Shown in pieces: positions 13,449 to 32,987 of a stretch of DNA of 64,000 nucleotides. The notes beneath the pieces were generated by a model. The model saw nothing but the letters and a program-made list of their open reading frames with translations. It was not told the DNA's origin and did no database searches. How positions within the stretch are numbered: position 1 is the stretch's first letter; each line of letters opens with the position of its first letter. A program made the position numbers and the translations under genes. This DNA comes from Acetomicrobium flavidum (GTDB taxonomy: Bacteria > Synergistota > Synergistia > Synergistales > Acetomicrobiaceae), in assembly GCF_900129645.1 (NCBI RefSeq), contig NZ_FSQZ01000001.1, positions 930,001 to 994,000 on the forward strand, in the 5' to 3' direction.

Positions 13449-13477
13449 TCCAATTCCTCCTTATAAGTTTAAATAGG

Positions 13478-14026
13478 TTACAAAACTGCGCCCTTCAGGT
13501 CGGGATGGGGATTGGGGATAAAAGAGGTATCCACAAGCAAACCCTTGCTTGCGACCAGCTCTTTGGCGACCGTAAGGGCCGTCTTGACCTCAGAAATATC
13601 TCCTCCCATGGAGAAGAAGGACTTAGCCCCCATGCCCCTTCCCAACCTGATCTCTATCAAAACTACCTTAGCAGCCTTGGCAGCCGCATCTGCTGCCTCT
13701 ATGATGCAGGGAGCAGCCAACGCTTCTACCACGCCCAATGCTCCCATATCGCCCACCTCTGTAGTGCATGCCAGGGCAGGAAAGACGGAAGGGTGAACGT
13801 TTGGAAGCAGCATCTCGTCTGTCAACATCTCCTCCGCCACTTGCTTTCCTGCGTTTAAGGCGTTTTTGACGGCACCCACCTGTCCCCATACCACTATCAG
13901 GTATTTCCCGGGGCATATTGGCGAGGCATGAAACAGCTTCACGTTAGCTGCCTTAAGCATAGCGTCAACCGTCGCCACGCCCCTGGCTACGCTGATAAGC
14001 TCGAAAGTTCCTATAGCCCTTTCCAT
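13478..14026 (-). CDS. pduT: BMC-T shell protein PduT-like, predicted [4Fe-4S] pore
   Basis: Tandem BMC-domain protein of 182 residues forming a pseudo-hexameric trimer in the shell. Domain 1 begins AIGTFELISVARGVA, domain 2 ALGVVEALAAPCIIEAADAA. The Cys in SPICPGKYLIVVWG matches the PduT cysteine (SxxCPGKF in the family) that binds one [4Fe-4S] cluster at the three-fold axis, so electrons may cross the shell here. The ATG at 14026 is preferred because GGGGG lies 9 bases upstream; the ATG at 14035 is too close to it. The adjacent upstream gene is PduS, the flavin/Fe-S electron carrier thought to dock on PduT. Confidence 0.92.
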   Translation of the reverse strand: MERAIGTFELISVARGVATVDAMLKAANVKLFHASPICPGKYLIVVWGQVGAVKNALNAGKQVAEEMLTDEMLLPNVHPSVFPALACTTEVGDMGALGVVEALAAPCIIEAADAAAKAAKVVLIEIRLGRGMGAKSFFSMGGDISEVKTALTVAKELVASKGLLVDTSFIPNPHPDLKGAVL

Positions 14027-14039
14027 GGCAACCATCCCC

Positions 14040-15362: not shown

Positions 15363-15375
15363 AGGTTTCGCCTGC

Positions 15376-16764
15376 CTAAACTATGCGAAACGCTCCGTGA
15401 AGGACGCAACGGCGCAGCCTGCAGAAGGACAGCGGCGTAGTCGGGCCATCTCCGGTGGTCGTTCCTATGGTAAATGCCGTGGGGCAGTCGCCTCCAACGC
15501 CTATAGATGCAAATGAGGGTGCATTTTTGACGAACATCGACGTCTCCATCACCTTTGCCATGTCGCTCATGTTGTCTATGTTGGTGCTGTGGATTATGGC
15601 AGAATGCCTGAAGCCGTGTTCTACGCGCTTTGCCATGGCCAGTCCCTCTTTGAAGTCGGCAACCCTTACCATGGCAAGTATCGGCATCATGAGCTCTTCC
15701 TGGACGAAGGGATGTCTTTCGTCACATTCGACTAATATAAGCCGCACATTGGGAGGAGGGGTAATGCCCAACTTTTCCAGGTATACGCATGCATCCTTGC
15801 CAACCATATCCTTTTTTATTTTGTGATCCTTTGTCAACACCAGGTCGACCAAAGCGTCTATCTTCGATCGATCCTTTAATTCGTACGCCCCGTTATGGCA
15901 CATTAGATCTTTCAGCTCGTCGGCAATACAATTGACGGCTATCAGTTCCTTTTCCGCGATGCAGGGAAGGTTGTTGTCAAAGGAAGCACCTGCGATTACG
16001 TCCTTGGCAGCTTTTTCGAGATGCGCCGTCTCGTCGACCAAGACCGGAGGGTTGCCAGGACCCGCCCCTATGGCAGGCTTGCCTGAAGAAAGGGCAGCCC
16101 TTACCACTCCTGGTCCTCCTGTGGCCGATATCAGCTTAATGTCCGGATGGGACATTAACTCCTTTAAACTATCCAGCGACGCATCGCTTAACGTCGATAC
16201 CACCTCAACGGGAGCGCCTTCCTCGGCCAAAATGCCCCTGATGAGGTCGATGGTCTTAAAGGTACAGCGCAACGCTCCCGGATGAGGAGAGAACACCACT
16301 CCGTTCCCTCCCGACAGCATGCAGATCGTATTATTTATGACGGTTGCCACCGGATTGGTTGAGGGCGTTATCGAGGCTATGAGTCCAAAGGGAGCCAGCT
16401 CTTCCAGTATAAGGCCATTGTCGCCTGATATTGCCCTGGTAGTGAAGTATTCAGGCCCCGGCGTCTTGGTAATTGCAAGTTTCTTCTTTAATATTTTATC
16501 GTCTAGACGACCCATATTAGTATCGTCTCGCGCAATTTTGGCCAATTCCTCGGCATGGGGCAAGAGCTTTGATTTTAAGGCTGAAATTACCCTCGTTCGG
16601 CTTTCCAGGTTGAAATCCCACTGCCAGGCCCTCTGGGCTTTGACTGCAGCTTCAACGATCTGATTTACAGAGGTGGGAGGTTTTGCCTCTTCGCGAGCTA
16701 GCTCGCTGGCAACTCTTGCCACTATTTTTTTAACGAGATCATCGACTTCGATTGTCGTGTTCAT
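15376..16764 (-). CDS. pduP: CoA-acylating propionaldehyde dehydrogenase PduP
   Basis: Converts propanal (or 3-hydroxypropanal/acetaldehyde) + CoA + NAD to the acyl-CoA inside the compartment. The catalytic Cys is in [39 protein letters not shown] holds the nucleotide/CoA region. 462 residues, as in PduP (about 464). The N-terminal 18 residues [18 protein letters not shown] are a typical amphipathic encapsulation peptide that docks on shell proteins, joined by a Pro-rich linker to the catalytic domain. ATG at 16764 is chosen because GGAGGGG is 5 bases upstream. Downstream neighbour is PduS, upstream PduO. Confidence 0.93.
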
Positions 16765-16775
16765 GTAAACCCCTC

Positions 16776-17750
16776 CTAACTCTCCCACGCCTTTACCATG
16801 GCCTCCGCCACGATCGTGTCCTCTTTGACGGATCCTCCGCTTACCCCGACGGCTCCAACTATTTCTTCGCCATTTTTAAGCAACAAGCCGCCGCCAAATA
16901 CCACGAGCTCAGGGTCATTCTGAAGTCCGTACAATTCTTTACCCGGTTGCACCAATTCAGCCAAATTGCCCGTCGGCATCTTAAGTTTTATGGCGGTGGA
17001 AGCCTTCTTTGGGGCAAGGCCTAAGCTGACTTGAAGCACTCCCTCCATCCTTTCAAAAGCCACAGGAAGGCCGAAGGCATCACACACTGCCATCGCCATG
17101 GGGACGCCTATCTCGTTGGCTTTATTGCGCCCTGCATTCATCAGCTTACGCGCCACATCCGCATTTAAAGGTTTTGACCCCATATCCGCCTGTTGTCCCA
17201 TTTTTAACACCACCTTTTTTGTGACTCTGTTTATAACGCTTTCCCAATGTGCCGAGATAGCAAGAGCATATATATAATCAGAAAGGCGGTTCAAATACAT
17301 ATAAGTCTCGCTGTCTATTAAATTCAATTCCAAAGCCTGCAGCCCTGCCCTTTCCGCCCTCCTGGCAAAGGACCTTGCAAGGTGAAGCATCGAACTTACC
17401 TCGTCGTCACCCGGGAGCACGAACTGATTGAAAAAGGGATATTCGCTTATGAGGAGATCGATGCGTTTTTCCAGTTCCTGGGGTGAAGGTTTTTGCCTTT
17501 GGGCTTGCCCGCGCGCTATGTAAGCCATGACCAATATTAGCTCCGACTGAAGCTCACAAATCCAGCCTGAAACCTTAGGCGTGGCCTTAGATCGCGCAAT
17601 TCCCAAAGCGCAGGTCACCTCATCCAGCGTACCGTTTAAGACGATTCTCGGGTCATCCTTTCTCACCCGAGTGCCGTCGTATAAGGACGTTTCCCCCACA
17701 TCTCCCGTTTTGGTATATATCTTCACCATGGCACTTCTTTGGCCTCTCAC
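16776..17750 (-). CDS. pduO: PduO-type corrinoid adenosyltransferase fused to a GlcG/HbpS heme-binding-like domain
   Basis: Residues about 8-185 are the trimeric PduO adenosyltransferase (ATP:cob(I)alamin): KIYTKTGDVGETSLYDG, then LNGTLDEVTCALG and FARRAERAGLQALE. Residues about 200-320 are a GlcG/DUF336 domain: GVPMAMAVCDAFGLPVAFERMEG and VGAVGVSGG. The product is adenosylcobalamin for the dehydratase. The GTG at 17750 overlaps the PduN stop as GTGA; the internal ATG at 17729 (MVKIYTKTG) is the alternative and matches the family start better. Fits Salmonella PduO in domain order and length (about 336). Confidence 0.93.
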   Translation of the reverse strand: MRGQRSAMVKIYTKTGDVGETSLYDGTRVRKDDPRIVLNGTLDEVTCALGIARSKATPKVSGWICELQSELILVMAYIARGQAQRQKPSPQELEKRIDLLISEYPFFNQFVLPGDDEVSSMLHLARSFARRAERAGLQALELNLIDSETYMYLNRLSDYIYALAISAHWESVINRVTKKVVLKMGQQADMGSKPLNADVARKLMNAGRNKANEIGVPMAMAVCDAFGLPVAFERMEGVLQVSLGLAPKKASTAIKLKMPTGNLAELVQPGKELYGLQNDPELVVFGGGLLLKNGEEIVGAVGVSGGSVKEDTIVAEAMVKAWES

Positions 17751-18049
17751 ATGATCTCATCGGAGCATACGTCTACCGTATCGACAATGCCTACTATCGC
17801 AAAATCTATGGGGGCATCCGTTACACCGGCCGCATTCCTGGCCGAGCTGCCTGAACAAAGGAGGACTATCTCCCCAACTCCGGCACCCACAAGGTCAACC
17901 GATATCTCGACACGACCGTCACCCCGCGCGGACATGAGCCTTCCGTCCTTTCCAGGCTCTAGAAACTGCACTAACAGCAGTTTATGTCCTACTAACCTTT
18001 CATCCTTTCTAGTCGAGACAACTTGTCCTATGACTTTTCCAAGTTTCAT
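17747..18049 (-). CDS. pduN: BMC-P pentameric vertex protein (EutN/CcmL/PduN)
   Basis: 100-residue OB-fold vertex protein that caps the twelve corners of the shell. Family markers: MKLGKVIGQVVSTRKDERLVGHKLLLVQ, VDLVGAGVGEIVLLCSGSSARNA and DFAIVGIVDTVD. It overlaps the preceding BMC-like gene by ATGA and the pduO start by GTGA, so three genes are translationally chained. Only one vertex protein is visible in the locus. Confidence 0.95.
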   Translation of the reverse strand: MKLGKVIGQVVSTRKDERLVGHKLLLVQFLEPGKDGRLMSARGDGRVEISVDLVGAGVGEIVLLCSGSSARNAAGVTDAPIDFAIVGIVDTVDVCSDEIM

Positions 18050-18366
18050 TGTAATTTACCCCCACCTTTCAAGGCCTCCAAGGCCCTTTCCACTTCGGCA
18101 ACAGCCCCAACTATGGCAACGGCAGGCATATGTTGGGGGCAATTGCCCATGACTTCGAAGGCCTCCACGGAGGCTATATCGGTTGCAATGTCGACGGCTG
18201 CTATGGTCTGTGCCACCATTCCCTGCAATATCAGCACGGCTCCCCATTTAACGCTATCAAGCAGTTCTTGATCCTCCTTGGAGGAAATGCCCCTGCGTAT
18301 GCGATTTTTTATGATCCGCTTACAGGAAACGGACGGTGCAATTATGAGTTCCCACTGAAGGGCCAT
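18046..18366 (-). CDS. Divergent BMC-domain-like small protein, function unknown
   Basis: 106 residues. The second half resembles a BMC fold in pattern: a start like ILQGMVAQTIAAVDIATDIASVE mirrors the '[24 protein letters not shown]' helix, and AVAIVGAVAEVERALEALK mirrors '[19 protein letters not shown]'. The first 40 residues (WELIIAPSVSCKRIIKNRIRRG) are not BMC-like, and the usual 3' strand with VIPRPH is lacking, so it may be a circularly permuted or degenerate shell protein or an adaptor. It sits between the PduM-like gene and pduN with an ATGA overlap to the latter. Its place in the operon is certain; the fold is inference. Confidence 0.6.
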   Translation of the reverse strand: MALQWELIIAPSVSCKRIIKNRIRRGISSKEDQELLDSVKWGAVLILQGMVAQTIAAVDIATDIASVEAFEVMGNCPQHMPAVAIVGAVAEVERALEALKGGGKLQ

Positions 18367-18375
18367 GGATCCAAC

Positions 18376-19011
18376 CTACCTTTCGATCTTTATGCCAAGC
18401 GACCTCAATCTGTCCTCGGCTTCATCGGTCAAACGAGATCCATTTTTTAAGATCACCACACCAATGCCTGAGAGGCGGTCAGCTATCTCACACCAACTTA
18501 TCCAACCCTTTTCGTCTAACTCGAGGACACGGGAAGAGTTAGTCGATCCTATTTTTGAAATTACGATAAACCCCAAATTACAAAGCCTGGACGTAATTTC
18601 GTCGATCCTCTTAGGGTCTATTGTCCTTAGCCATCTTGTAATGCAGGTATCGTCAACTATCACGGGCAGTTGTTCGTCCAGACATCCGAAAACGAGAGAC
18701 CCTGCAGCGGTAAAGGGCAACCCCAAACACAGCTTAGAAACGAAATCAAGGGAAATGTTGGGTATGATCAGAGCCGATAACGTCTTTGCCTCACGATACG
18801 GATCGGTCAATGACTCGACAATATAGCAGGGGTTGTTGGCGTGATTAGACGATTTAGTGAAATCGCCTGACAAATAATGCACCCATGTCAGTTCCCCAGA
18901 TGGAGCCCACCGGAGGAAATCGTGATTGCCGGACGTCCAAAGTATGCCCACCCTGGGCATATGTAGCCTTTTAAGCACGATGTCGCATATATTATTTACC
19001 ATGGCCTCCAT
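18376..19011 (-). CDS. PduM-like microcompartment assembly protein (divergent, enlarged)
   Basis: 211 residues. It starts with a short amphipathic helix (MVNNICDIVLKRL) like the encapsulation helices elsewhere in the operon. It ends with WCEIADRLSGIGVVILKNGSRLTDEAEDRLRSL, resembling the C-terminal 'yrDVaaltrv...vvVrrktivTalA' region of PduM. PduM itself is about 163 residues, so this homologue is larger, with an unusual central part (HYLSGDFTKSS, GCLDEQLPVIVDD). PduM is needed for Pdu shell assembly in Salmonella (known); no catalytic motif is seen. ATG at 19011 has GGAGG 6-7 bases upstream and overlaps eutJ by 20 bases. Assignment to PduM is by position and end similarity only. Confidence 0.6.
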   Translation of the reverse strand: MEAMVNNICDIVLKRLHMPRVGILWTSGNHDFLRWAPSGELTWVHYLSGDFTKSSNHANNPCYIVESLTDPYREAKTLSALIIPNISLDFVSKLCLGLPFTAAGSLVFGCLDEQLPVIVDDTCITRWLRTIDPKRIDEITSRLCNLGFIVISKIGSTNSSRVLELDEKGWISWCEIADRLSGIGVVILKNGSRLTDEAEDRLRSLGIKIER

Positions 19012-19891
19012 GACAACGCCTCCACAGACATTCAGCGATACCCGAAGGAGTGACTACCATGGAATAGGGAGCCAAAACCGCTTCGCTTCCCATAGCTTGA
19101 GATATCGCCTCGGGAGCGCCCTCTATGTTGGCTCCGCCCCCAACGATAACTACAGGCACCTTTCCCAGGAAGCCGCTTTTGTCCAAATGATCTCTGGCAA
19201 TGACGCCCATCTTTTCGAACACGGGACGAATTATATTGAAAATCCTCCTGTGAGATTTGGTATCCCGCTTTAACCTTTCGGCTTCATCGAAGGATATGCC
19301 TAAAGCTCCAGCCAGGACCAACGTGACATGAGTGCCACCCGTTGGCTCGTCGGCAGAATATACCACCTCTCCCCCCTGGATGACGGCGATACCGGTAGTC
19401 CCGCCTCCTATGTCTACTATTGCGCCGTTTTCAATTCCCAGCGCAACGGAGGCAACTACAGGCTCCTCGTAAAGCCCCATGCAGGGAAATCCCAAAGCCT
19501 CAACTATGTTTGCGCACACTTGGGCCGTCCTCTGCGATATCCCCGGAGGATAGGCAGCTGCGCCCATGGCCGTAAAGTCAAGGTCGCCCAGGCGTCGCCT
19601 TAGGGTCTTTAGACACATTTCCATGCCCTCTATTGCAGCCATGTAGTCCACTATGACCCCGTCACGTATCGAGGAACGCGAATCGTTCAAGACCGCACTG
19701 ACAGGTTGTCCCGATTCGTTAAGGGCGACCAGTTTCATGTTGGTTGTTCCAAGATCAAATCCCAGATAAAGTTCATCCCAATCGGTCAATGGCCCGCCAA
19801 AGGTCAATGCCTTATCAATAGAGGCTAGCTTTTCCACCGTTTGTTCGCTGAGGACGTTGTTGATCGTAGCACCGCAAGTCTCAAAGCTCAT
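18992..19891 (-). CDS. eutJ: EutJ-like actin/Hsp70-fold protein of the microcompartment
   Basis: 299-residue protein of the Hsp70/actin ATPase superfamily: LYLGFDLGTTNMKLVALNE (phosphate 1), IGGGTTGIAVIQGGEVVYSAD (phosphate 2) and VVIVGGGANIEGAPEAIS (adenosine). EutJ has this length and these motifs; it is viewed as a chaperone in ethanolamine BMCs. Its presence in a Pdu-type dehydratase locus is a mixed Eut/Pdu composition. The start overlaps the pduL stop as ATGA. An N-terminal extension of about 40 residues (TINNVLSEQTVEKL) precedes the core. Confidence 0.9.
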   Translation of the reverse strand: MSFETCGATINNVLSEQTVEKLASIDKALTFGGPLTDWDELYLGFDLGTTNMKLVALNESGQPVSAVLNDSRSSIRDGVIVDYMAAIEGMEMCLKTLRRRLGDLDFTAMGAAAYPPGISQRTAQVCANIVEALGFPCMGLYEEPVVASVALGIENGAIVDIGGGTTGIAVIQGGEVVYSADEPTGGTHVTLVLAGALGISFDEAERLKRDTKSHRRIFNIIRPVFEKMGVIARDHLDKSGFLGKVPVVIVGGGANIEGAPEAISQAMGSEAVLAPYSMVVTPSGIAECLWRRCHGGHGK

Positions 19892-20526
19892 ACCAAGACC
19901 CTCACATAATCCCCGGTTTTAAGGCTACATGCGTTTGCCTCGTCAATATCAACATGAAATTCGCTTATCATGTCCGGACCAACCCTCACCCATACTCGCT
20001 TAAAGATGAGGCCTCGATCTCCCCTTACTTCCACATCTATTTCTTGGCCATCCTTTAGGCCAAGTGCCTGGGCTTCAGCCGGAGATAGGTGCAGATGACG
20101 ACGCGCCATGCCGACGCCTTTGGTCAAAACGATGTGCCCCTTGGGTCCCAATACAATGATGGGAGGGCAGGGTTGGCTTGATCCGCTTTTGATAAGCGGT
20201 ATGTCGATATGAAGCCTTATCGCGTCCGACATCGCCATCTCCACCTGCGTGCTCTTCCTTATAGGTCCAAGGATGCGAACGTTTTCCAATACACCGCCAG
20301 GCGCAACTAAGGTAACGGTCTCCTTGCAGGCATACTGACCGGGCTGACGCAGATCGCGAAGTTTAGTCAAAGTATAGTCCTCTCCAAACAAGATCTTCAC
20401 GTCTACAGCGGTGAGATGAATGTGGCGATTGCTTACACCCGCCACAACTAAAGTGGGATCGCTTAAGTCAACGTTAAGCTTATCCAATACGCGGCGAACG
20501 ATCTCACTTATCAGTACATCATTCAT
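19888..20526 (-). CDS. pduL: Phosphate propanoyltransferase PduL
   Basis: Phosphotransacylase converting propanoyl-CoA + Pi to propanoyl-phosphate and recycling CoA inside the compartment. Two repeats of the PduL fold are seen: GVSNRHIHLTAVDVKILFG with its zinc-ligand HxH and RDLRQPGQYACKETV, then ARRHLHLSPAEAQALGLKDGQ with the second HxH. The N-terminal MNDVLISEIVRRVLDKL is an encapsulation-type helix. ATG at 20526 is chosen over the GTG at 20535 because AGAGGAA is about 9 bases upstream. No acyl kinase (PduW) is in the window, so the acyl-phosphate must be used by an enzyme encoded elsewhere. Confidence 0.94.
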   Translation of the reverse strand: MNDVLISEIVRRVLDKLNVDLSDPTLVVAGVSNRHIHLTAVDVKILFGEDYTLTKLRDLRQPGQYACKETVTLVAPGGVLENVRILGPIRKSTQVEMAMSDAIRLHIDIPLIKSGSSQPCPPIIVLGPKGHIVLTKGVGMARRHLHLSPAEAQALGLKDGQEIDVEVRGDRGLIFKRVWVRVGPDMISEFHVDIDEANACSLKTGDYVRVLV

Positions 20527-20561
20527 CGTCGTCACTTCCTCTTTTCAGCCGCAGGTATTCT

Positions 20562-20876
20562 TCAATCGGTTTGTACATTGAGCGATTCGGCCTTGGGCGC
20601 ACCTTCCTGCGGTAAAATGGTTTCCGTATCGGTATGTGGCCTTGGAATGACGTGAGATGAAACGACCTCGCCAACCCTGGAGGCTGCTGCCACTCCGGCA
20701 TCCACCGCGGCCTTCACGGCACCAACATCACCACGAACCATCACCGTCACTAATCCTGCCCCCGAAAACCTCTGTCCTGCCAAACGGACGTTTGCCGCTT
20801 TTACCATGGCGTCAGCGGCTTCTATGGCGCCAATCAGACCTCTAGTTTCAATCATCCCCAGGGCTTCCTGAGTCAT
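20562..20876 (-). CDS. pduJ: BMC-H hexameric shell protein (PduA/J paralogue 2, altered pore)
   Basis: Single BMC-domain protein of 104 residues that tiles shell facets: [50 protein letters not shown]. It is closely similar to the PduA/J-like gene at 27496, but its pore loop reads RFSGAGL instead of KIGSGL, replacing the canonical pore serine context. A short extra tail ([13 protein letters not shown]) follows. The ATG at 20876 overlaps the preceding BMC-H gene by 29 bases; AGGGAGG lies upstream within that gene. PduA versus PduJ cannot be decided. Confidence 0.92.
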
Positions 20877-21381
20877 ATGTCATACCTCCCTCTTCTTCAT
20901 CCATAATTACATCCTGATCGTCCTTTTCCGAGATCCTCTTGTACCTTTTTCTAGGCGCTCTTTTCTTGGTTCGATTCTTTTGTGCCTCTTCCTGGTCCAT
21001 GTTTTTCTCTGGTTTGCCTTCACCAACCATAGGTCCCTTTTGTTCTAGGGCTTTGGATGAAAGCATCAAATTTAGCCATTCCTGTGATCCCAGTGTTGCC
21101 TTGTTATAGGTTAACATTCCACCAATACCCTGCCCCGGCCTTGGAATGACGTCTATGGACCAAACACGGTTAACCCTTTCAGAGACAGCCTTGGCAGCAG
21201 ACAGGGCAGCCTTCACCGCGCTGACATTTCCTGCAATTTTGACGGTCATCATGCCACCTTGGGAATTCTCGCGGCCTATTAAGCTCACGTCTGCGGCCTT
21301 TAAAGCCGCATCCGCAGCTGCAATAGCAGCTACTAAGCCTATTGTCTCTATAAACCCAAGGGCTAATTTAATCTCCTGCAC
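20848..21381 (-). CDS. BMC-H shell protein with long charged C-terminal extension (PduK/EutK-like architecture)
   Basis: Residues 1-90 are a BMC domain: [40 protein letters not shown] and [11 protein letters not shown]. Residues 95-177 are a non-BMC extension with a strongly basic run ([11 protein letters not shown]) followed by an acidic one (DEEEGG) and no Cys, so it is not the Fe-S-type tail of Salmonella PduK. It might bind nucleic acid, as EutK's tail may, or cargo (inference). The GTG at 21381 has GGGGGA about 8 bases upstream. The last 29 bases overlap the next shell gene in another frame, unusual for this tightly spaced operon. Confidence 0.85.
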
Positions 21382-24250: not shown

Positions 24251-24266
24251 TTTCAACGCCCCCTTT
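24239..24266 (-). repeat. 28-base translation-initiation repeat, copy at pduE
   Basis: Matches 26598-26625 at 27 of 28 positions. It covers the AAAGGGGGCG ribosome site, the TTG start and the first codons (Leu-Ala-Glu-Lys). The two copies sit at the starts of the small and large dehydratase subunits. The single difference turns the pduC TTTAAA into TTGAAA here, adding a second possible TTG start. Confidence 0.8.
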
Positions 24267-24925: not shown

Positions 24926-24938
24926 GGTCTTCCCCTCC

Positions 24939-26609
24939 TTACACATCCTCGGGCCTAATTGCCCAAGGAATGTTCTTTATCTCCTCCCAACGTTCGTCGG
25001 AGATCCTATAACCGGTCCCTGGACCTCGGTAATCGTTGGGATCATTGACGGAGCTATAAACAGTACCGTCACGATCTATCCAGGCCGAAGTCTGCAGATA
25101 ATCGCCGGAAACCCTTTGGCGCATCATCATGACTATCGCTTCGGCTATGTCCCTAAAACCTCTCTGCGCAAGGATCTTGGCTATATCAATGCCGTTTATG
25201 CCTTCGTTCAAGAGTCTCTCTGCGGCCCTTAAATCCTCAGTTACGTTTCTGTCGGGCACATCCTTGCTTCCGTTAGCATAGGTCGCAGCTTCCACCTCGG
25301 CGTCAGTTATGGGCGGGAACCCTAAAGCGTCATAAACGGCCTGAAGGGCTCTTACGGCTTTGTTGCGGACAGCGACTACCTCCTCTTCGGAGACGGGCTT
25401 GCAACCGCCATCAACCTTGAAGTCGCGCTGAATCGCCAGATAGTCGTCCATATCCTCAATATCCCAGTTGGATCCAGCAAACATGTTGTCGTAATTCGGA
25501 ACGCCGGAATAGCCGGAAAAGATCAGGTCTGTGCCTGAAAAGAGTTGAGGTATCGTACGAGCGGTTCGCCTTAGATCGGAATGAGAAAAGGTCTGGTCAT
25601 TGCCGGAAGCGACCTCCATATCAAGCGTGACGGTAATCAAGTTTTCCGCCGCAACGGCCCTCAAGCCGCTTGGAACAGCTCCCGGTACGCCTATGCAGGA
25701 AATTGAGCCGTTTTGAAGGCCCTGAACCCCGGCGCCCTTGGTGATCATGACGCATCTGGCTTCCAGGTAAAGCATGCTCTTGCCCTCTGCGGCCCCCATC
25801 TGTACTTCTGCCCCGGTGCCACTGGTAAAACGCATCTTCAAGCCCCTGCTCGCGTATGCGGAAGCAAGAAACGCCTTAGACCAGGGCGTGTCGTCGCCAT
25901 CAATGAATACGCTTTCGGTACCGTATACCGAGACCGTCTCCGCATAACTGGTAAGGCCTCTCATTCCGATCTGGAGCTCGAAGGCCTCCTCAAGAGCGCA
26001 CTGCGTAAGCACTCCGGGTCTGCCCGTTTGAGATCCTATAAGCAGAGACAAGGCATTCAAAGGGGCATAGCGATTTACGCCAACGGTGGTCTCGAGTTCC
26101 ACGAAGCCCCTTAACGCCCCCTCCGCTGCATCTGCGGCAAGCTGGACCGGGTGATCCTTTGCGCTGGTTATGTGGGCCTGATTGGCTGGAGTCTTACGAG
26201 ATCTCATCTTAGAAAGACCCATCATTATCTCAACAATGTTGAGGCAATCCATAACCCTGCTTATCTTGGCCGGAGTTAAGCCCTGGAAGACCCTCGTAAC
26301 TTCTGTCCTTGGAACGTTAGGATCGACAAGCATCATTGCCAGTTCTGTCTCGCTTTTCGCCATGGCCTGTGGGGCCATATCTATATCGATGGCATAATCC
26401 GCGATGAATTGTTCTATCATATCGAAATCCTGACGCTTCTTTCCGTCCATCTCCCCTATCTTGCCGTTTTCTATCTTTATGGACGGCACGGGATCGTTAG
26501 GACTTCCCATTGCAATAAGCCCCACATCTATCCATTCCGCTATGAAGCCGTCCTTATGGACCGGCCTATTATTTAGCACTTCAAATCTTTTGCTTTTCTT
26601 TTCAGCCAA
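24939..26609 (-). CDS. pduC: AdoCbl-dependent propanediol/glycerol dehydratase large subunit PduC
   Basis: Catalytic subunit converting 1,2-propanediol to propanal, or glycerol to 3-hydroxypropanal, by radical rearrangement. 556 residues (PduC 554). Conserved active-site stretches are present: NQAHITSAKDHPVQ, RGFVELETTVGVNRYAP, LTQCALEEAFEL, VQGLQNGSISCIGVP, SNDQTFSHSDLRRTA variant (GNDQTFSHSD) and FSGYSGVPNYDNMFAGSN. The substrate preference, diol versus glycerol, cannot be fixed by eye. TTG at 26609 is chosen: it follows AAAGGGGGCG and gives the family start AEKKSKRFEVLNNRPV; the ATG-like start at 26636 would lack a ribosome site. Confidence 0.96.
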   Translation of the reverse strand: MAEKKSKRFEVLNNRPVHKDGFIAEWIDVGLIAMGSPNDPVPSIKIENGKIGEMDGKKRQDFDMIEQFIADYAIDIDMAPQAMAKSETELAMMLVDPNVPRTEVTRVFQGLTPAKISRVMDCLNIVEIMMGLSKMRSRKTPANQAHITSAKDHPVQLAADAAEGALRGFVELETTVGVNRYAPLNALSLLIGSQTGRPGVLTQCALEEAFELQIGMRGLTSYAETVSVYGTESVFIDGDDTPWSKAFLASAYASRGLKMRFTSGTGAEVQMGAAEGKSMLYLEARCVMITKGAGVQGLQNGSISCIGVPGAVPSGLRAVAAENLITVTLDMEVASGNDQTFSHSDLRRTARTIPQLFSGTDLIFSGYSGVPNYDNMFAGSNWDIEDMDDYLAIQRDFKVDGGCKPVSEEEVVAVRNKAVRALQAVYDALGFPPITDAEVEAATYANGSKDVPDRNVTEDLRAAERLLNEGINGIDIAKILAQRGFRDIAEAIVMMMRQRVSGDYLQTSAWIDRDGTVYSSVNDPNDYRGPGTGYRISDERWEEIKNIPWAIRPEDV

Positions 26610-26625
26610 TTTAAACGCCCCCTTT
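26598..26625 (-). repeat. 28-base translation-initiation repeat, copy at pduC
   Basis: Second copy of the element at 24239-24266 (27/28 identity), spanning ribosome site, TTG start and first four codons of pduC. See findings. Confidence 0.8.
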
Positions 26626-26642
26626 AATCTCGGCAACCCTGC

Positions 26643-27467
26643 TTAAATGTAGGGAGTCGTAGCCGATTTGGGCTCAGCACCCATGGCACCCAGGAGCTTT
26701 TTGCCTATGCTTCTGGCGGCAATTAATGCCTGACGCACTGCGCCGGAATCCCCTGTAAAGGTTATGACCACTTCGTTCGTCAAAGATAGGCCCTTTGTGG
26801 GAGACAGGTAATCTATCAGCTCTACTTCAGCAGCTTTCAGTGCGGTATCGCTCATGACAAAGCCGATCCCCGCAGGAGCTCCTACGATGAGGCCAAATGC
26901 CCTGCCAACGGGGGCATTGAATGCCTTGTTGCATGCGTAGCTTGCTCGAGCCGTATACTGAAACTCCAAATGACCGGCATCGTTGGCATAAACATCGCCA
27001 AAGGTACGACGCAAATCCTTTAAAGCCACTTCTATTGCCCTTCTGGCATCGGATACGTCTTCCGCTCCAAAGATTATCAATGATCCGTGTCCGGCACCGC
27101 CCTTAGTATCCCTGGGAAGCTCGATGACAACTATCTCCGTGTTCGTCGCCTTAACGGCCTCATCTGCGGCCATTATCTGCGGCCCGGCCCCCGTCCTGCC
27201 GGAAAAGATCCCAACGGATCTGAATTTTTTGTCTATGCCCAGCTTTTCGTGAAGCATAGGCTCAACGTTGGCCACGACCAGGCCGATGGTATCGCCCTCG
27301 GAGATGCCGACGTATTCGGTGACGCCTACAATGTTTTGTGCGCACACACTGGCAACCTTTTCCTCATCGCTTTGCTGCTGGGAAGCCTTCTCGGGGGCTA
27401 CCACGCTGCCGCCACCGATACGCTTCATCACCTCATCCATTACTTTTTTCATCATCTCTTGTTCCAT
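26643..27467 (-). CDS. pduB: BMC-T trimeric shell protein PduB
   Basis: Tandem BMC-domain shell protein of 274 residues (PduB 270). Domain 1: VGVTEYVGISEGDTIGLVVANVEP; domain 2: PVGRAFGLIVGAPAGIGFVMSDTALKAAEVELIDYL and GDSGAVRQALIAAR. The N-terminal extension (MEQEMMKKVMDEVMKRIGG) is the helix that in Salmonella PduB links the shell to the enzyme core. ATG at 27467 has GGAGGTG about 8 bases upstream. It lies between a PduA/J gene and the dehydratase, the canonical order. Confidence 0.95.
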   Translation of the reverse strand: MEQEMMKKVMDEVMKRIGGGSVVAPEKASQQQSDEEKVASVCAQNIVGVTEYVGISEGDTIGLVVANVEPMLHEKLGIDKKFRSVGIFSGRTGAGPQIMAADEAVKATNTEIVVIELPRDTKGGAGHGSLIIFGAEDVSDARRAIEVALKDLRRTFGDVYANDAGHLEFQYTARASYACNKAFNAPVGRAFGLIVGAPAGIGFVMSDTALKAAEVELIDYLSPTKGLSLTNEVVITFTGDSGAVRQALIAARSIGKKLLGAMGAEPKSATTPYI

Positions 27468-27495
27468 CAATCACACCTCCCGAAAAAGGGTGCCG

Positions 27496-27774
27496 CTATT
27501 CCAGCTTAGGAAGCAGCTTCTCTGTGTCGCTGTGGGGCCTGGGGATCACGTGTACGGAGACTATTTCGCCCACTCGCTTTGCCGATGCGGCGCCTGCATC
27601 AACGGCAGCCTTAACGGCTCCAACATCACCGCGAACCATCACGGTCACTAGTCCCGAGCCTATTTTCTCGTAACCTATAAGCCGAACATTTGCCGCTTTC
27701 ACCATCGCATCCGCCGCTTCTATCGCTCCAACTAAGCCTTTTGTTTCGATCATCCCTAACGCTTCACCAGTCAC
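27496..27774 (-). CDS. pduA: BMC-H hexameric shell protein (PduA/J paralogue 1, canonical pore)
   Basis: 92-residue single BMC domain: [44 protein letters not shown] and [16 protein letters not shown]. The pore loop KIGSGL is the one of PduA/PduJ, whose serine-lined pore passes 1,2-propanediol (known). GTG at 27774 chosen because GGAGGTG lies upstream in the end of pduV. It is a near-twin of the gene at 20562, which differs at the pore. Confidence 0.94.
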
Positions 27775-27778
27775 GGTT

Positions 27779-28222
27779 CTACACACCTCCTGCTAAGCTT
27801 GCGATTTTGTGCCTTAGTTCCATTATCCCCTCTCCTGTCAGTGCCGAGACACAGACCACCTCCTTAACCCCTGTTTCCTGCAGTATTCTTTTCGCCCTAT
27901 TTATCTGCTCTTCGCTCGATAAATCTATCTTGTTGATCACCCCTATAACTGTGGATCTGAGGGCCTTCACGAAACGAGAGGGAAACTGCTTTAAATTTGT
28001 GGGGTCAACCAAAAGAAGGATCATTGCAGACCTGGAAGAATAAGTTATTAACGCATGATAAAAGCGGGGCAGATCGAAAAATTCCCCCGGGGTATCGATG
28101 GCTTTCCCAAAGAACTGAATGAAAGAGGTCTTACGAACGGAGCTCTCATCATTGGTTAACCCTAACGTTTTCAGCAACGTCGTCTTACCGGATCCAGATG
28201 GGCCTATGACCATGATGCGCAT
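27779..28222 (-). CDS. pduV: PduV/EutP-type small GTPase
   Basis: 147-residue Ras-like GTPase: P-loop [21 protein letters not shown] (switch II, G3) and NKIDLSS (G4), SALTGEG (G5). PduV is about 150 residues and associates with the outside of Pdu compartments (known), possibly with filaments; EutP has been reported to have acetate kinase activity, relevant because no PduW kinase is in this locus. ATG at 28222 overlaps the pduU stop (TGATG). The longer frame to 28333 lies inside pduU and is not needed. Confidence 0.92.
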
Positions 28223-28566
28223 CACGTAAAGGTAACGTCCGTCGGGAAAAACCCCAGGACCTCTTTCAAGGAATTGACGGCTGTACGAAGGGCATTTTCC
28301 ACGGAGGCAACTTCGCCTGTGAGCATTACGCAACCGGTAAACCTGTCGACGAACTCTATGTTTACGCTGGAGGACTTGCTTGCCATGTCGGCTGCGATAA
28401 TCGCGCCCTCACCCGGAGTAATTGTCATGATCCCTATTGCTCCGGCTCTATCGATGCCAACCTTATTGCACAGCTCTCCTTTGGGATTTCTTATTATGTG
28501 AGCAAGGGTCACCTGTTTGCCGGGAACGTATTCCTGTATCACCCTTAAACGATCGCTTCCGTCCAC
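28222..28566 (-). CDS. pduU: Permuted BMC-H shell protein PduU (EutS-like), first gene of the BMC operon
   Basis: 114 residues. Circularly permuted BMC domain: RVIQEYVPGKQVTLAHIIRNPKGEL, GAIGIMTITPGEGAIIAADMA and FVDRFTGCVMLTGEVASVENAL. The N-terminal beta-barrel sequence typical of PduU is present. GTG at 28566 chosen: GGGGG lies 7 bases upstream and the resulting length matches PduU (116); the upstream in-frame residues (MQRHRFFVLL...) lack a ribosome site. Promoter must lie in 28567-28670; no good -35/-10 pair was seen, as expected if an AraC-type activator is required. Confidence 0.93.
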   Translation of the reverse strand: MDGSDRLRVIQEYVPGKQVTLAHIIRNPKGELCNKVGIDRAGAIGIMTITPGEGAIIAADMASKSSSVNIEFVDRFTGCVMLTGEVASVENALRTAVNSLKEVLGFFPTDVTFT

Positions 28567-28670
28567 AAAAGCACCCCCTATGTCCCTTATAAGTAAAACA
28601 AAAAAGCGATGCCTTTGCATTCAAAGATAATGGCGATATTTTGTTCAATAATTCCTATTAATGCATACAT

Positions 28671-28704
28671 AAAAAGACCTGAGAGCTTGATCTCAGGTCT
28701 TTTT
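28671..28704. terminator. Bidirectional-looking terminator between the regulator gene and the BMC operon
   Basis: Arms 28671-28684 and 28691-28704 (AAAAAGACCTGAGA / TCTCAGGTCTTTTT) pair over 14 bp with a 6-base loop; both strands end in five T. It lies 55 bases after the response-regulator stop and about 105 bases before pduU, so the regulators and the BMC operon are separate transcripts. Confidence 0.9.
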
Positions 28705-28758
28705 ACTAAACTTTCGTTTTTTTGTTCCTGCCGACCTTAAACCACTGGAGCTAATATC

Positions 28759-30357
28759 CTATATTGCACCAACGCTATCGCTCGAATGCAACGACCTCTT
28801 ATATTCGCTGGGGGGACATCCTGCCATTTCCTTAAAAAGGGTGCTGAAATAAGTTATGTTGTCGTATCCTACAGATGTCGCCGTCTCCGTAACGCTGCAT
28901 CCCATTGCCAAGAGCTTCTTTGCGCGCTCTATTCGCTTTTCTTTAATTACGTCGATAAATCTTTTATTCAAAACCTTACCAAACATGCGACTTAAATAAC
29001 TGGGGCTTACGTAGACGTGTTCCGCTACTTTCGATAAATTGGCCTCTTGCAGGTTGTCCTCTATGAAGGCCAGGGCTTTTTGTATTAAAGCAAGATCGGG
29101 ATCTCTTACGCTTTGCCTAACCCTCCATGCCTCCTCAAGGGAAATGAAGAACATGTTTTTAAGGTCGACAACGGACCTTATGGGTATCATCATGTCCCTG
29201 ACCTGTCTTCTAGCCCAAGCCTTAAGGGTTTCCTCGTCGCATTTGAGGTCTAAAAGCAATTTACATATTTGCCCGATGTATCCAGCGAACAATAACCTTA
29301 CGATCTCAACATTGACCGCGACATCGGATTGAGATAAGAGCGCAAAGAGCTTGCCGGCGCCATCGTTTACAAGCTGCAATTGCCCACCACGCATCCCCTC
29401 CAAAATAGCTGAAAAAGCCTGGTCAAAATCGGCATGGCTATCGCTCGTCGACTTACTGTCAACCTTAGCCTGAGGCTGTCCGTATATGAGCTTGCCAAAG
29501 CCCTCGAGGATGCTTTCTTCGAGGATCTCTTCTAACGACGGGAGGACCTCATCAATTTCGTTTAAACCTGTCACCTTGCCCATGTATACTACATTGCAAT
29601 GCATATCATTTTGTAAGGCAACATCGAAGATCTTTGACGCCACGGATTCTGGATTTTCCATCGGACCATTGAAAAACAAAAGAGTGATATAGCGCACCCA
29701 TGGAACCAGAAAAACCGAATCCCCCAAGATCCTTTGAAGTTCCCCTAAAAGCATTAGCTGTGACCACTGTTTTTCTTCAGCATCAAATCCGCTTAAAGCT
29801 ATCACGCCAAAGACATGCATGCCCTGAATTGGAAGGAAGCCCACTTCCTTTGCTACGGCTTTAAGCCCCTCCGTGATCTCCTCTCCGCGGACCAATCCCT
29901 GAATTATCATCGAGGCAACAAAGCTCTTGTTTTCTAAAATAAATTTCTTCAACCTAATGAGTTGCTGAGAAATTTTGTCCGTTTCCTGTATTTCCTCTAT
30001 GGCCTTGTTTAAGGCGTCATAAAGGACATCATCTTTGACGGGTTTAACCAAAAAGGCAGTTACGTTGAGCCCTACGGCCTGTTGAGCGTACTCGAAGAAA
30101 TCATAGGCAGTCACTATTACGACCTTTCCCTGAAATCCTTCATTTCTCAACACCCCCAACGATGTCAGGGTATTTCCGCCGGGAATCTTTATATCCAATA
30201 AGACGACGTCCGGCTTCCATAGGCGCACCTTTTCCTCAAAATCGATCGTATTGGCAGCCTCGTCTATCTCCAAAAGCAGAGGATAGGACTTAAGCATCTC
30301 CACTAAGGCTCGCCTTTCCAAAGGTTCATCTTCGACGACAAGCACCTTTTTGGGCAC
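28759..30357 (-). CDS. AraC-type response regulator (YesN-like)
   Basis: Cytosolic DNA-binding regulator of 532 residues. Receiver domain at 1-120 with acidic pocket VVEDEPLER, phospho-Asp in VVLLDIKIPGGN and Lys in FLVKPVKDD. A long linker (125-400) without recognisable motifs follows, then an AraC helix-turn-helix pair at about 420-525 (SKVAEHVYVSPSYLSRMFGK and SVTETATSVGYDNITYFSTLFK). GTG start follows AAGGAGG inside the end of the kinase gene. The adjacent BMC operon is the obvious target (inference from position and from PocR in Salmonella). Confidence 0.92.
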   Translation of the reverse strand: MPKKVLVVEDEPLERRALVEMLKSYPLLLEIDEAANTIDFEEKVRLWKPDVVLLDIKIPGGNTLTSLGVLRNEGFQGKVVIVTAYDFFEYAQQAVGLNVTAFLVKPVKDDVLYDALNKAIEEIQETDKISQQLIRLKKFILENKSFVASMIIQGLVRGEEITEGLKAVAKEVGFLPIQGMHVFGVIALSGFDAEEKQWSQLMLLGELQRILGDSVFLVPWVRYITLLFFNGPMENPESVASKIFDVALQNDMHCNVVYMGKVTGLNEIDEVLPSLEEILEESILEGFGKLIYGQPQAKVDSKSTSDSHADFDQAFSAILEGMRGGQLQLVNDGAGKLFALLSQSDVAVNVEIVRLLFAGYIGQICKLLLDLKCDEETLKAWARRQVRDMMIPIRSVVDLKNMFFISLEEAWRVRQSVRDPDLALIQKALAFIEDNLQEANLSKVAEHVYVSPSYLSRMFGKVLNKRFIDVIKEKRIERAKKLLAMGCSVTETATSVGYDNITYFSTLFKEMAGCPPSEYKRSLHSSDSVGAI

Positions 30358-30362
30358 GTATT

Positions 30363-31571
30363 TTAATCCTCCTTACAGGGAATGCATATGTTGACCTTTG
30401 TTCCTACGTCGGGTTTGCTCCAAATGTTAAACGAAGCATCATCGCCGTAATGCAGTTTAAGCCTTTCCTTTACATGGGATATGCCCAGGCCTTCTTTGAT
30501 CTTTTCAGGCAAACAACCCACCCCGTTATCTTCCACGCTGATTTCCAATTTTCCTTCACATATCTTTCCTCTTAAAAGTACGACTCCTGGGCGCAATGAC
30601 GGTTCTATGCCGTGGACCACGGCATTTTCCACTATTGGCTGAAGGATCAAAAAAGGTATCTTACACGATAGGGCCTCAGGCTCAACATCCAAAACGTAGG
30701 AAAATCTGTCGCTGAACCTCACCTTCTGTATGGACAGATATTGTTTCAGGCATTCCAATTCGCTGCTTAAAGGGACTAATTCGTCACGCGATTGTCTCCT
30801 GAGTATGTATCTAAGATAGTCGGCAAATTGAATCGTGAGTTCTTGCGTCTGGGGTGCGCCCTCGAACATGGCCATGCGCGACATTATGTTTAAAGTGTTG
30901 AACATAAAATGCGGATTAAGTTGATTCTGCAAAGCCTTTAGCTGAGCCATCTTTAGGTTCCTTTCAAGCGTTTCCTTATCTCGCTGCGCTTTGACCAGCT
31001 CCATGGTCCTATGCAATAATTTGCTCTCTATGAGGTGACGTTCGCAGAGCTCAACTACGTGCGATGCCATCACATTAAGCAGATTCATGGCATTGAGCAC
31101 GGTCGTCTCGTCGACCACGGGCAAAGCCAAAAAGTCTTGAACCCAATCATCGACTTCGGTGGCGTCACAGGGCCACAATGGAACGATTTCCTTTCGGACT
31201 TCCTCTTCGGTATAAGGCCTGAGCAATACCTGTCCACAAAGCAAGGTGCCCACTAACCTTCCCTCAATTATCAAGGGGCTCGCCATATCGATCAATCCGC
31301 AGTGGCACCTGTAAACCAGTGGACCGCCAACATCCAGGGCATGCTCTCCTCCCCAGGCATCGCTTCTTTCGCAACCACACCTGCCTTCGGGATGGGAACG
31401 AAGCCTGCGACAGAAGGCACAAAAATTGCTAGGTATCGTCAGCGCAGTTCCGTCGGTGGTTGCTATCACGGCACCAACGTGCATGGCTGCAGCAAATCTG
31501 TCTACAAGGTCCTTAAGCCTGTCCAGCTCAATTACCTCAGACCACCACTCGTAAGATCCATAGGAAGCCAT
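30363..31571 (-). CDS. PocR-domain sensor histidine kinase (LytS/YesM-type)
   Basis: 402 residues. N-terminal PocR ligand-binding domain (about 15-175), Cys-rich: SNFCAFCRRL, EGRCGCERSD, YRCHCGLIDMASP and GTLLCGQVLL. A short coiled coil is followed by a His_kinase domain with the phospho-His in NPHFMFNTLNIMSR, and an HATPase with VENAVVHGIEP and DNGVGCLPEK. No transmembrane segment, so it senses a cytosolic ligand. In Salmonella the PocR domain senses 1,2-propanediol within a one-component AraC activator; here the sensor and AraC output are separated into a two-component pair. The ATG has GGAGAG upstream. Confidence 0.92.
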   Translation of the reverse strand: MASYGSYEWWSEVIELDRLKDLVDRFAAAMHVGAVIATTDGTALTIPSNFCAFCRRLRSHPEGRCGCERSDAWGGEHALDVGGPLVYRCHCGLIDMASPLIIEGRLVGTLLCGQVLLRPYTEEEVRKEIVPLWPCDATEVDDWVQDFLALPVVDETTVLNAMNLLNVMASHVVELCERHLIESKLLHRTMELVKAQRDKETLERNLKMAQLKALQNQLNPHFMFNTLNIMSRMAMFEGAPQTQELTIQFADYLRYILRRQSRDELVPLSSELECLKQYLSIQKVRFSDRFSYVLDVEPEALSCKIPFLILQPIVENAVVHGIEPSLRPGVVLLRGKICEGKLEISVEDNGVGCLPEKIKEGLGISHVKERLKLHYGDDASFNIWSKPDVGTKVNICIPCKED

Positions 31572-31762
31572 CTTGTTATCTCTCCAGGTAAGATAAATAG
31601 ATATTTCTGCAATTATATATTATAATACGTTCACAACTAAACATAAATGACCTCCCATGACTTGAGGAGAGTGTGGCATTCATATTTAATGAAATTAGCA
31701 TCCGGAAAGTGCTTCCTTAAATAAAACCATTACTAACTACTAGAACTTTCATCTCGCATCAC
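31572..31762 (-). other. Intergenic leader of the sensor kinase gene
   Basis: 191 bases without a reading frame. Near the kinase start the minus strand is very A/T-rich with a TATAAT at about 31619-31625, but no convincing -35 at proper distance. I see no terminator directly after the aldolase stop, so read-through from the aldolase into the kinase is possible. Confidence 0.4.
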
Positions 31763-32407
31763 TCACTTTTGCCCATAGGTCTTAAACTTCTCAAGCATCA
31801 ATTCCATCTCTTCGTCGGGCAGAATTACAGGTTCTCCAACGCATTTGGCCCTATAGTAGATTTCACATACCATCTCTATTATTTCTGCTATTCCAAAGGC
31901 AGAGGGCATATCCGGCCCAACCGCGATAAGGCCATGATTAGCCAAAAGAACAGCATTGTATTCTTCGCCCATAGCATTATATGCGGCGTCTGCTATCTCT
32001 TGTGTGCCAAAGGTGGCGTAGGGGGCGCAGGGGACTTTCTTTCCGGCATAGGCGATCAGGTAGCTTGCAGGGGGAACCTCCCAATGCAGGGTAGCAAGAG
32101 TTGTAGCAAACATGGAATGCGTATGGACAACGGCACCGACATCTTCCCTTTTTTGATAAAAAATTAAATGCATTCTCCATTCACTTGACGGCTTTCTAAA
32201 CCCATCCACAATTTTTCCGTTTAAATCCATGACCACAACGTCTTCAGGTTTGGTCTCAAAATAATCCATGCCGCTGGGAGAAATTGCCATCAACTTACTT
32301 TTTTCATCTAAAACACTGATATTACCTCCCGTGCCCCTGGTAAGCCCCGCCGCTATAAGTTTCTTGCCATATTCAACAATAACTTGCCTTTTCTCTTCTA
32401 AAAGCAA
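31763..32407 (-). CDS. Class II (zinc) aldolase, fuculose/rhamnulose-phosphate-type
   Basis: 214-residue aldolase of the FucA/RhaD/AraD family: TRGTGGNISVLDE (phosphate loop), Ser-rich PSSEWRMH, zinc His pair in VVHTHSMFATTLATLH, and LLANHGLIAVG with a third His. FucA-type enzymes cleave fuculose-1-phosphate or rhamnulose-1-phosphate to DHAP and L-lactaldehyde, whose reduction gives 1,2-propanediol, the BMC substrate (known of the family; assignment to this sugar is inference). TTG start at 32407 with GGGGTGG 7 bases upstream. No encapsulation helix. It is upstream of the regulator pair, same strand. Confidence 0.88.
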   Translation of the reverse strand: MLLEEKRQVIVEYGKKLIAAGLTRGTGGNISVLDEKSKLMAISPSGMDYFETKPEDVVVMDLNGKIVDGFRKPSSEWRMHLIFYQKREDVGAVVHTHSMFATTLATLHWEVPPASYLIAYAGKKVPCAPYATFGTQEIADAAYNAMGEEYNAVLLANHGLIAVGPDMPSAFGIAEIIEMVCEIYYRAKCVGEPVILPDEEMELMLEKFKTYGQK

Positions 32408-32460
32408 ATGATACCACCCCTATTTGTACTCATTCCATTTTCTCGCTTCATTATAATATA

Positions 32461-32987
32461 ACCATCATGCGCACGACTCCCGAAGAAAACGCCAAACTTG
32501 GGCAAATAATGGCACAAAGGCTGAATCAATTGAAGGGCCCTACATACAAAACTTGGAAGAGACCGGCATGGGCTACGACCTGGAGGTGGAGACCATTGCC
32601 TTGGCCCATGAGATGGATATGCTGACCTGTCCTTACGTATTCGATACAAAACAGGCCATGGCCATGACCCGGGCAGGCGCTGATATCATAGTTGCCCATA
32701 TGGGGTTGACCACGAAAGGTAGCATCGGGGCCAAGACTGCCTTGACCCTGGAAGAAGCGGCAAAGCGCGTGCAGGAGATACATGATGCAGCAAAGTCCGT
32801 CAATCCTGACGTCATGGTGATATGCCATGGAGGTCCCATAGCCGAACCGGAGGATGTGGAATATATCTTTGCGCATACCAAGGGCATCGTGGGATTTTTT
32901 GGCGCATCGAGCATGGAACGCATACCTGTGGAAAGGGCAATAAAGGAACAGGTGGAACGCTTCAAATACTTAAGGGTAAATATGTAA
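32461..32987 (+). pseudogene. Fused remnant of a Tm-1-like/UPF0261 gene and a PEP-hydrolase-family gene
   Basis: From the ATG at 32467 the frame encodes MRTTPEENAKLGQIMAQRLN up to LKGP, which I recognise as a stretch of Tm-1-like/UPF0261 proteins, where it normally continues as 'VAVFIPLKGVSMIDA'. At about 32540 this is abandoned and another frame carries YIQNLEETGMGYDLE and on, through MGLTTKGSIGAKTALTLEEA and HGGPIAEP to GASSMERIPVE: the C-terminal half of the phosphoenolpyruvate hydrolase-like TIM-barrel family (about 275 residues). These two families are commonly adjacent genes in this order. A deletion of the UPF0261 end and the hydrolase N-terminal half, and loss of the UPF0261 start, explains it. 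A TTG at 32553 could still start a 144-residue fragment. Confidence 0.82.

Follow-up and report, generated by a model that had tools for sequence, protein, structure and literature searches.

Gene content of the locus

The window analysed here is a 64,000-nt stretch of the 2.02 Mb genome of Acetomicrobium flavidum (Synergistota; contig NZ_FSQZ01000001.1, positions 930,001 to 994,000), and the genes in question are a regulatory pair and an aldolase gene that lie upstream of its propanediol utilization (pdu) operon. Domain and family calls were made by Pfam and NCBIfam profile searches, the latter with curated cut-offs. These confirmed the three genes that a sequence-only reading of this DNA had named:

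28759..30357, minus strand: response regulator, 532 aa, with a receiver domain (5-116), a middle region and an AraC-type HTH_18 domain (445-521)
30363..31571, minus strand: PocR-domain sensor histidine kinase, 402 aa, soluble, LytS-type (Pfam/NCBIfam)
31763..32407, minus strand: class II aldolase, 214 aa, PRK06833 family, DrdA-like

The kinase matched PocR (PF10114, 148.9 bits, residues 12-175), His_kinase (PF06580, 94 bits, 209-290) and HATPase_c (309-399), and the regulator matched Response_reg (62.7 bits) and HTH_18 (72.9 bits). The H-, N- and G-boxes of the kinase and the D/T/K residues of the receiver are all present. No transmembrane segment was found in the kinase (highest 19-aa hydropathy 1.46), in agreement with the earlier description of a soluble LytS-type enzyme. 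The aldolase scored 191 bits with Aldolase_II (Pfam) and 335.6 with PRK06833 (NCBIfam; cut-off 264).

The kinase and regulator genes are separated by 5 nt. A gap of 138 nt follows the regulator gene, and then comes the pdu operon in the order pduU-V-A-B-C-D-E-G:

28222..28620, minus strand: PduU/EutS-type shell protein (Pfam/NCBIfam)
27779..28333, minus strand: PduV/EutP-type GTPase (Pfam/NCBIfam)
27496..27786, minus strand: PduA-type shell protein (Pfam/NCBIfam)
26643..27470, minus strand: PduB shell protein (423.9 bits, cut-off 173)
24939..26636, minus strand: PduC, diol/glycerol dehydratase large subunit (963 bits, cut-off 788)
24266-24946, minus strand: PduD
23708-24256, minus strand: PduE
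21843-23678, minus strand: PduG (962.5 bits)
21400-21846, minus strand: PduH, assigned by position alone, without an NCBIfam match
12351..21381, minus strand: remainder of the operon, encoding shell proteins, PduL, an EutJ-like protein, a vertex protein, PduO, PduP, PduS, PduT and a terminal GldA-like dehydrogenase

The terminal dehydrogenase gene (12351-13448, minus strand) closes the operon in place of PduQ; its product gives high scores with glycerol dehydrogenase and glycolaldehyde reductase models (458.7 with the latter).

A PDU1D-type two-component system

The kinase and regulator are a PDU1D-type two-component system, a known type of regulator found here in Synergistota. In the PDU1D passage of Axen et al. 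2014 (PMC4207490), a two-component system with the PocR domain on the kinase is a feature of the subtype, and a similar system is noted in Clostridium butyricum. As in the PDU1D loci described there, the window operon encodes PduC, PduD and PduE of a B12-dependent diol dehydratase with bacterial microcompartment (BMC) shell proteins, and a PocR-domain kinase system replaces the one-protein PocR. The kinase carries the only PF10114 match in the genome, and the one-protein PocR regulator is absent. The PDU1 loci of that paper were confined to two phyla, whereas this one is in Synergistota; in addition, its PDU1D passage names no aldolase, and the window has one alongside. According to a published survey, Anaerobaculum (Acetomicrobium) hydrogeniformans acquired its pdu cluster from Clostridiales.

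A second precedent is the pair Awo_c25930/Awo_c25920 of Acetobacterium woodii (PMC7593272), where a kinase and response regulator likewise lie directly upstream of pdu. In that species the regulator binds DNA ahead of both pduA and its kinase gene, and 1,2-propanediol, 2,3-butanediol, ethylene glycol and ethanol all induced a reporter (PMC7593272). The two systems differ in that the A. woodii regulator is ~43 kDa, compared with 532 aa in the window, and in that the A. woodii cluster is reported without pduU, whereas the window operon begins with it. Diol-dependent signalling to the pdu promoter has been demonstrated only in A. woodii (PMC7593272); for the window pair it is predicted. Thus, the proposal that PocR sensing is split here into a kinase and an AraC-type response regulator was correct as to the proteins, but the arrangement had already been described in both of these papers.

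The pair directly precedes pduU in three other genomes of the genus (G012, G014 and G015), and the order kinase-regulator-pduU-V-A-B-C is kept in eight species from three other genera (G020, G021, G022, G107, G108, G110, G182 and G183). In G123 the pair is inverted and transcribed away from pduU. Because the kinase/regulator/pduU block recurs in relatives, it is not a chance arrangement. No aldolase was found near the pair in nine pdu loci of other genera, within the stretch examined.

Related pairs also occur without nearby pdu genes (G016/G017 and G115/G116). In G116 (L052, 6815-16465) the PocR kinase and regulator adjoin a 2-oxo-acid/acetoin-dehydrogenase-like operon and two GldA homologues, and there are no pdu genes. 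In Rahnella, a related pair adjoins pduF, a BMC gene and a glycyl radical enzyme. Judging by the neighbours in G116 and Rahnella, the family seems to have a general role in the breakdown of small diols that is not confined to B12 compartments. The G116 and G016/G017 settings, and a hairpin that stands between regulator and pduU in the window (see below), would also suit a pair that controls something besides or instead of pdu and whose ligand is not a diol. We judge this very unlikely given the direct synteny with pduU across several genera, the A. woodii regulator data (PMC7593272) and the surroundings of the Rahnella pair.

Two elements were noted between the regulator gene and pduU:

28670..28700, minus strand: hairpin with a T-run, GACCTGAGA-TCAAGC-TCTCAGGTC-TTTTT, spotted by eye and conserved in sister species
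28711..28724, minus strand: CAAAAAAACGAAAG box upstream of pduU, from sequence and alignment

The terminator scan did not list the hairpin, and terminator and promoter counts in this region were no higher than in shuffles. Boxes of the form TCAAAAAAACRAA, similar to CAAAAAAACGAAAG, precede pduU in other genera: the box recurs between regulator and pduU (window 28700-28759; equivalent regions of L041, L042, L046 and L050), and G182/G183 carry it twice at a spacing of 21 bp. Over all the intergenic regions pooled, 9 matches to the core pattern were counted, compared with 0.22 expected from shuffles. We regard the CAAAAAAACGAAAG box as a candidate operator of the AraC-type regulator, a lead rather than a defined site. 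Weighing against an operator, the match in G108 is on the opposite strand and resembles a terminator tail, and such tails could account for part of the enrichment.

In the scheme we propose, the cytoplasmic PocR domain would sense a short-chain diol, primarily 1,2-propanediol and probably also related ones; the LytS-type kinase would then phosphorylate the receiver, and the AraC-type domain would activate the pdu operon from pduU onward. An Rfam scan of the window at gathering thresholds found no riboswitch, cobalamin riboswitches included.

An aldolase brought next to the kinase by deletion

In three sister species the gene order is UPF0261 and phosphoenolpyruvate (PEP)-hydrolase-like genes (other strand), aldolase, 2-hydroxyacid dehydrogenase (342 aa), XylB-like FGGY kinase (513 aa), C69 dipeptidase and PocR kinase, with ~4.6 kb between the aldolase and PocR-kinase genes. 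The same operon start is seen in G011. In G013 the aldolase-dehydrogenase-kinase trio is at another place, and a PocR kinase was not detected in that genome (89% complete). The adjacency of aldolase and PocR kinase is specific to the window genome, where decayed genes lie on both sides of the aldolase:

31675..31763, minus strand: decayed 5' stub of the 2-hydroxyacid dehydrogenase gene, MKVLVVSNGFI*...RKHFPDANFIKYE, from alignment with the sister genes that follow the aldolase
32455..32543, plus strand: remnant of the UPF0261 gene, which is divergent from the aldolase in sisters
32547..32987, plus strand: 3' half of the PEP-hydrolase-like TIM-barrel gene, intact (278 aa) in sisters

The DNA alignment of the stub scored 61 with L059, against a shuffle maximum of 56 (beating all 200 shuffles), and 59 with L039, against a shuffle maximum of 67. 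Since the alignment beats shuffles with only one of the two sisters, the stub argument rests on the peptide matches and on position. On the plus strand the UPF0261 and PEP-hydrolase-like remnants are fused (32455-32987), and both genes are intact in L039 at 14208-15428 and 15447-16283. The 191-nt stretch before the PocR-kinase gene gave alignments no better than shuffles with the sister FGGY kinase, C69 and PocR-kinase upstream regions, so the original upstream region of the kinase is unrecognisable in the window. A further difference from the A. woodii locus is that the window lineage, unlike its sister species, has lost most of the region upstream of the kinase.

The aldolase is therefore a neighbour by deletion: the window lineage deleted the FGGY kinase and 2-hydroxyacid dehydrogenase genes, and deletions on both sides brought the aldolase gene beside the PocR-kinase gene. 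It is what remains of a separate operon (aldolase - 2-hydroxyacid dehydrogenase - FGGY kinase) and no part of the diol-sensing device. A point on the other side is that co-regulation in the sister species is compatible with the break in synteny.

As the rest of its operon is gone or survives only as stubs, the aldolase might itself be a leftover that has no role in this strain and has not yet decayed. However, its catalytic residues (E76, H95, H97 and H158) are intact, and its non-synonymous distance to the sister enzymes (0.076-0.090) does not exceed the distance between two kinase-bearing sisters (0.091-0.096); only this distance was compared, as synonymous sites were saturated in the pairwise dN/dS estimates. 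The lack of excess amino-acid change, next to a badly decayed stub, suggests that the aldolase is still in use, and we find a leftover unlikely.

Deoxysugar genes and the supply of lactaldehyde

The sequence-only reading also took the aldolase to be of FucA/RhaD type and to feed lactaldehyde to the B12 compartment. Such an enzyme would split fuculose- or rhamnulose-1-phosphate, and the lactaldehyde would be converted to 1,2-propanediol. The family does carry the name L-fuculose-phosphate aldolase, FucA of Streptococcus pneumoniae is a close relative, the GldA-like dehydrogenase that ends the pdu operon could reduce lactaldehyde, and there are precedents elsewhere, such as C. methylpentosum and Listeria growing on rhamnose (PMC8386454).

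The partner genes are missing. Neither FucI (PF02952) nor RhaA (PF06134) was found in the window genome, and a search of six Acetomicrobium genomes gave no FucI. A fuculo- or rhamnulokinase was likewise not found in the window genome, where GlpK is the sole clear FGGY kinase among the FGGY_C matches (two more are weak and below cut-off). The kinase of the sister operon is XylB-like, far under the fuculokinase and rhamnulokinase cut-offs. At 214 aa the aldolase has the same span as FucA and DrdA, with no N- or C-terminal encapsulation extension. Because there is no FucI, RhaA or deoxysugar kinase and no such extension, a supply of deoxyhexose-derived lactaldehyde is improbable here. As the adjacency to the regulatory pair is moreover secondary, and the closest solved relative (DrdA) yields acetaldehyde, the proposed route through fuculose- or rhamnulose-1-phosphate to the compartment is not supported, and we consider it very unlikely.

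The window aldolase shares fold and family with FucA of S. pneumoniae (4C24) and Escherichia coli (1FUA), the former also falling in its clade, but unlike FucA systems the genome is without FucI/FucK/RhaA/RhaB partners. The GRM5/PVM fucose-rhamnose microcompartments likewise have a class II aldolase encoded near the BMC locus; the window BMC differs from them in its B12 diol dehydratase, the aldolase here lacks an encapsulation extension, and related pdu loci have no such gene alongside. A fuculose-phosphate aldolase name beside a propanediol operon can thus mislead, where genome content and sister species indicate a deletion and an enzyme of by-product salvage. The well-founded part, control of B12 pdu loci by a PocR two-component system, in this case in a member of Synergistota, is set apart from a guess based on gene neighbours.

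Affinity and possible substrates of the aldolase

The aldolase is the sole PF00596 protein of the genome. Its best match in the PDB is DrdA of Bacillus thuringiensis (6BTD, 278.6 bits), which cleaves 5-deoxyribulose-1-phosphate to dihydroxyacetone phosphate (DHAP) and acetaldehyde (DrdA/Ald2; PMC6079011, PMC12632272). Besides having this enzyme as its nearest solved relative, the window aldolase resembles DrdA and Ald2 (B. thuringiensis; E. coli ATCC 25922; PMC6079011, PMC12632272) in its catalytic Glu/His residues and in the presence of an MtnA homologue in the genome (TIGR00512, 425.7 bits, cut-off 279). The MtnA gene is in an operon with genes for adenosylhomocysteinase (AHCY) and a nucleoside-deaminase-like amidohydrolase; the genome also has a purine nucleoside phosphorylase (PNP) gene together with DeoB. 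In the reading we favour, the aldolase is unrelated to Pdu and probably serves the salvage of 5'-deoxyadenosine and methylthioadenosine, by-products of enzymes that use S-adenosylmethionine (SAM). It would act after MtnA, cleaving 5-deoxyribulose-1-phosphate (or 5-methylthioribulose-1-phosphate) to DHAP and acetaldehyde (or methylthioacetaldehyde), in a dispersed DHAP shunt comprising a deaminase, a nucleoside phosphorylase, MtnA and the aldolase.

Among Synergistota genomes at least 95% complete, with any PF00596 protein counted as class II aldolase, 83 had both aldolase and MtnA, 3 the aldolase only, 3 MtnA only and 7 neither (Fisher p = 1e-6, uncorrected for ancestry). With this co-occurrence, salvage of 5'-deoxynucleosides becomes testable in an anaerobic phylum. 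Aldolase and MtnA genes adjoin each other in G049 and in G148, where the enzyme sits on a very long branch, and 52% identical relatives stand in mtnA/mtnK/aldolase clusters of Acetoanaerobium and Lactobacillus intestinalis (mtnK-mtnA-aldolase in the latter). In G158, one of the few aldolase-only genomes, where MtnA was not detected, a FucI-like isomerase domain adjoins a class II aldolase (C98:6286-7355).

Several observations weigh against a salvage role. S. pneumoniae fuculose-1-phosphate aldolase (4C24) scores 251 bits against 279 for DrdA, and in the tree DrdA, this FucA and the window aldolase share one weakly resolved clade (E. coli FucA, 1FUA, falls outside it); because the S. pneumoniae enzyme is nearly as close and in the same clade, the sequence does not settle the substrate. 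MtnA is ~617 kb from the aldolase, which, unlike DrdA/Ald2, is clustered with neither mtnK/mtnP nor mtnA, and in the Acetomicrobium sisters it sits with 2-hydroxyacid dehydrogenase and FGGY kinase rather than MtnA. Unlike in DrdA/Ald2 systems, the upstream steps would also have to run through a deaminase and PNP. A label of methylthioadenosine phosphorylase (MTAP) for the nucleoside phosphorylase was rejected, as NCBIfam gives the single PF01048 protein of the genome as an inosine/guanosine-type PNP; since, in addition, the deaminase-like amidohydrolase is below every equivalog cut-off, the upstream steps of the shunt are guesses. Finally, the co-occurrence count takes in any PF00596 protein and ignores shared ancestry, and its 'neither' set comes mostly from two related genera.

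The sister operon may point to a rival substrate. Its XylB-like kinase may make a ketose-1-phosphate, with the aldolase cleaving a pentulose-1-phosphate (ribulose-1-phosphate) to DHAP and glycolaldehyde; ethylene glycol derived from the latter could even feed the diol dehydratase. The NCBIfam ribulose-1-phosphate aldolase (NF053831) is the second-best model, but its 210.7 bits are below the curated cut-off of 300. A pathway through ribulose-1-phosphate that yields glycolaldehyde has been shown in haloarchaea, whose kinases are, in plasmid records, those most similar to the sister kinase; one haloarchaeal FGGY kinase, 44% identical to it, adjoins a 50% identical aldolase, although that aldolase falls outside the window clade. 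The glycolaldehyde reductase score of the terminal pdu dehydrogenase (458.7) would fit, as would the occurrence of the kinase-dehydrogenase-aldolase module in Paracoccus and Sinorhizobium. However, the kinase and the 2-hydroxyacid dehydrogenase are lost from the window genome, and the scheme gives the dehydrogenase no role. By analogy, a ribulose-1-phosphate-type reaction giving glycolaldehyde is possible in the sister operon; for the window aldolase, we consider it rather unlikely. The alphaproteobacterial FGGY kinase / 2-hydroxyacid dehydrogenase / class II aldolase modules lie on Sinorhizobium meliloti pSymB (L149, 5421-8710) and in Paracoccus denitrificans (L148, 5282-8504).

On gene content, synteny, deletion scars, the absence of deoxysugar genes and sequence affinity, we favour with reasonable confidence a diol two-component system of known type beside an aldolase that deletion made its neighbour and that probably works in salvage. 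A more speculative extension is that an unclustered DHAP shunt from 5'-deoxyadenosine to DHAP and acetaldehyde operates in most Synergistota, and that in Acetomicrobium one source of the 5'-deoxyadenosine would be its release by inactivated B12 diol dehydratase, the acetaldehyde being taken up by the Pdu aldehyde enzymes. We rate this as a long shot; if true, cofactor damage in the compartment would be recycled as carbon.

Other observations

The idea that glycyl radical enzymes are missing from this genome was rejected, since two were found: HypD, above cut-off (L147), and one other (L146 1492-3864; C1:14496-16439 of this genome) with a CutC score of 746 (cut-off 1050). Downstream of the pdu operon, the window encodes a radical SAM C-methyltransferase (8551-10416, minus strand) of the TIGR03975 family (505 bits, cut-off 282), which acts in the maturation of ribosomally synthesized and post-translationally modified peptides (RiPPs).

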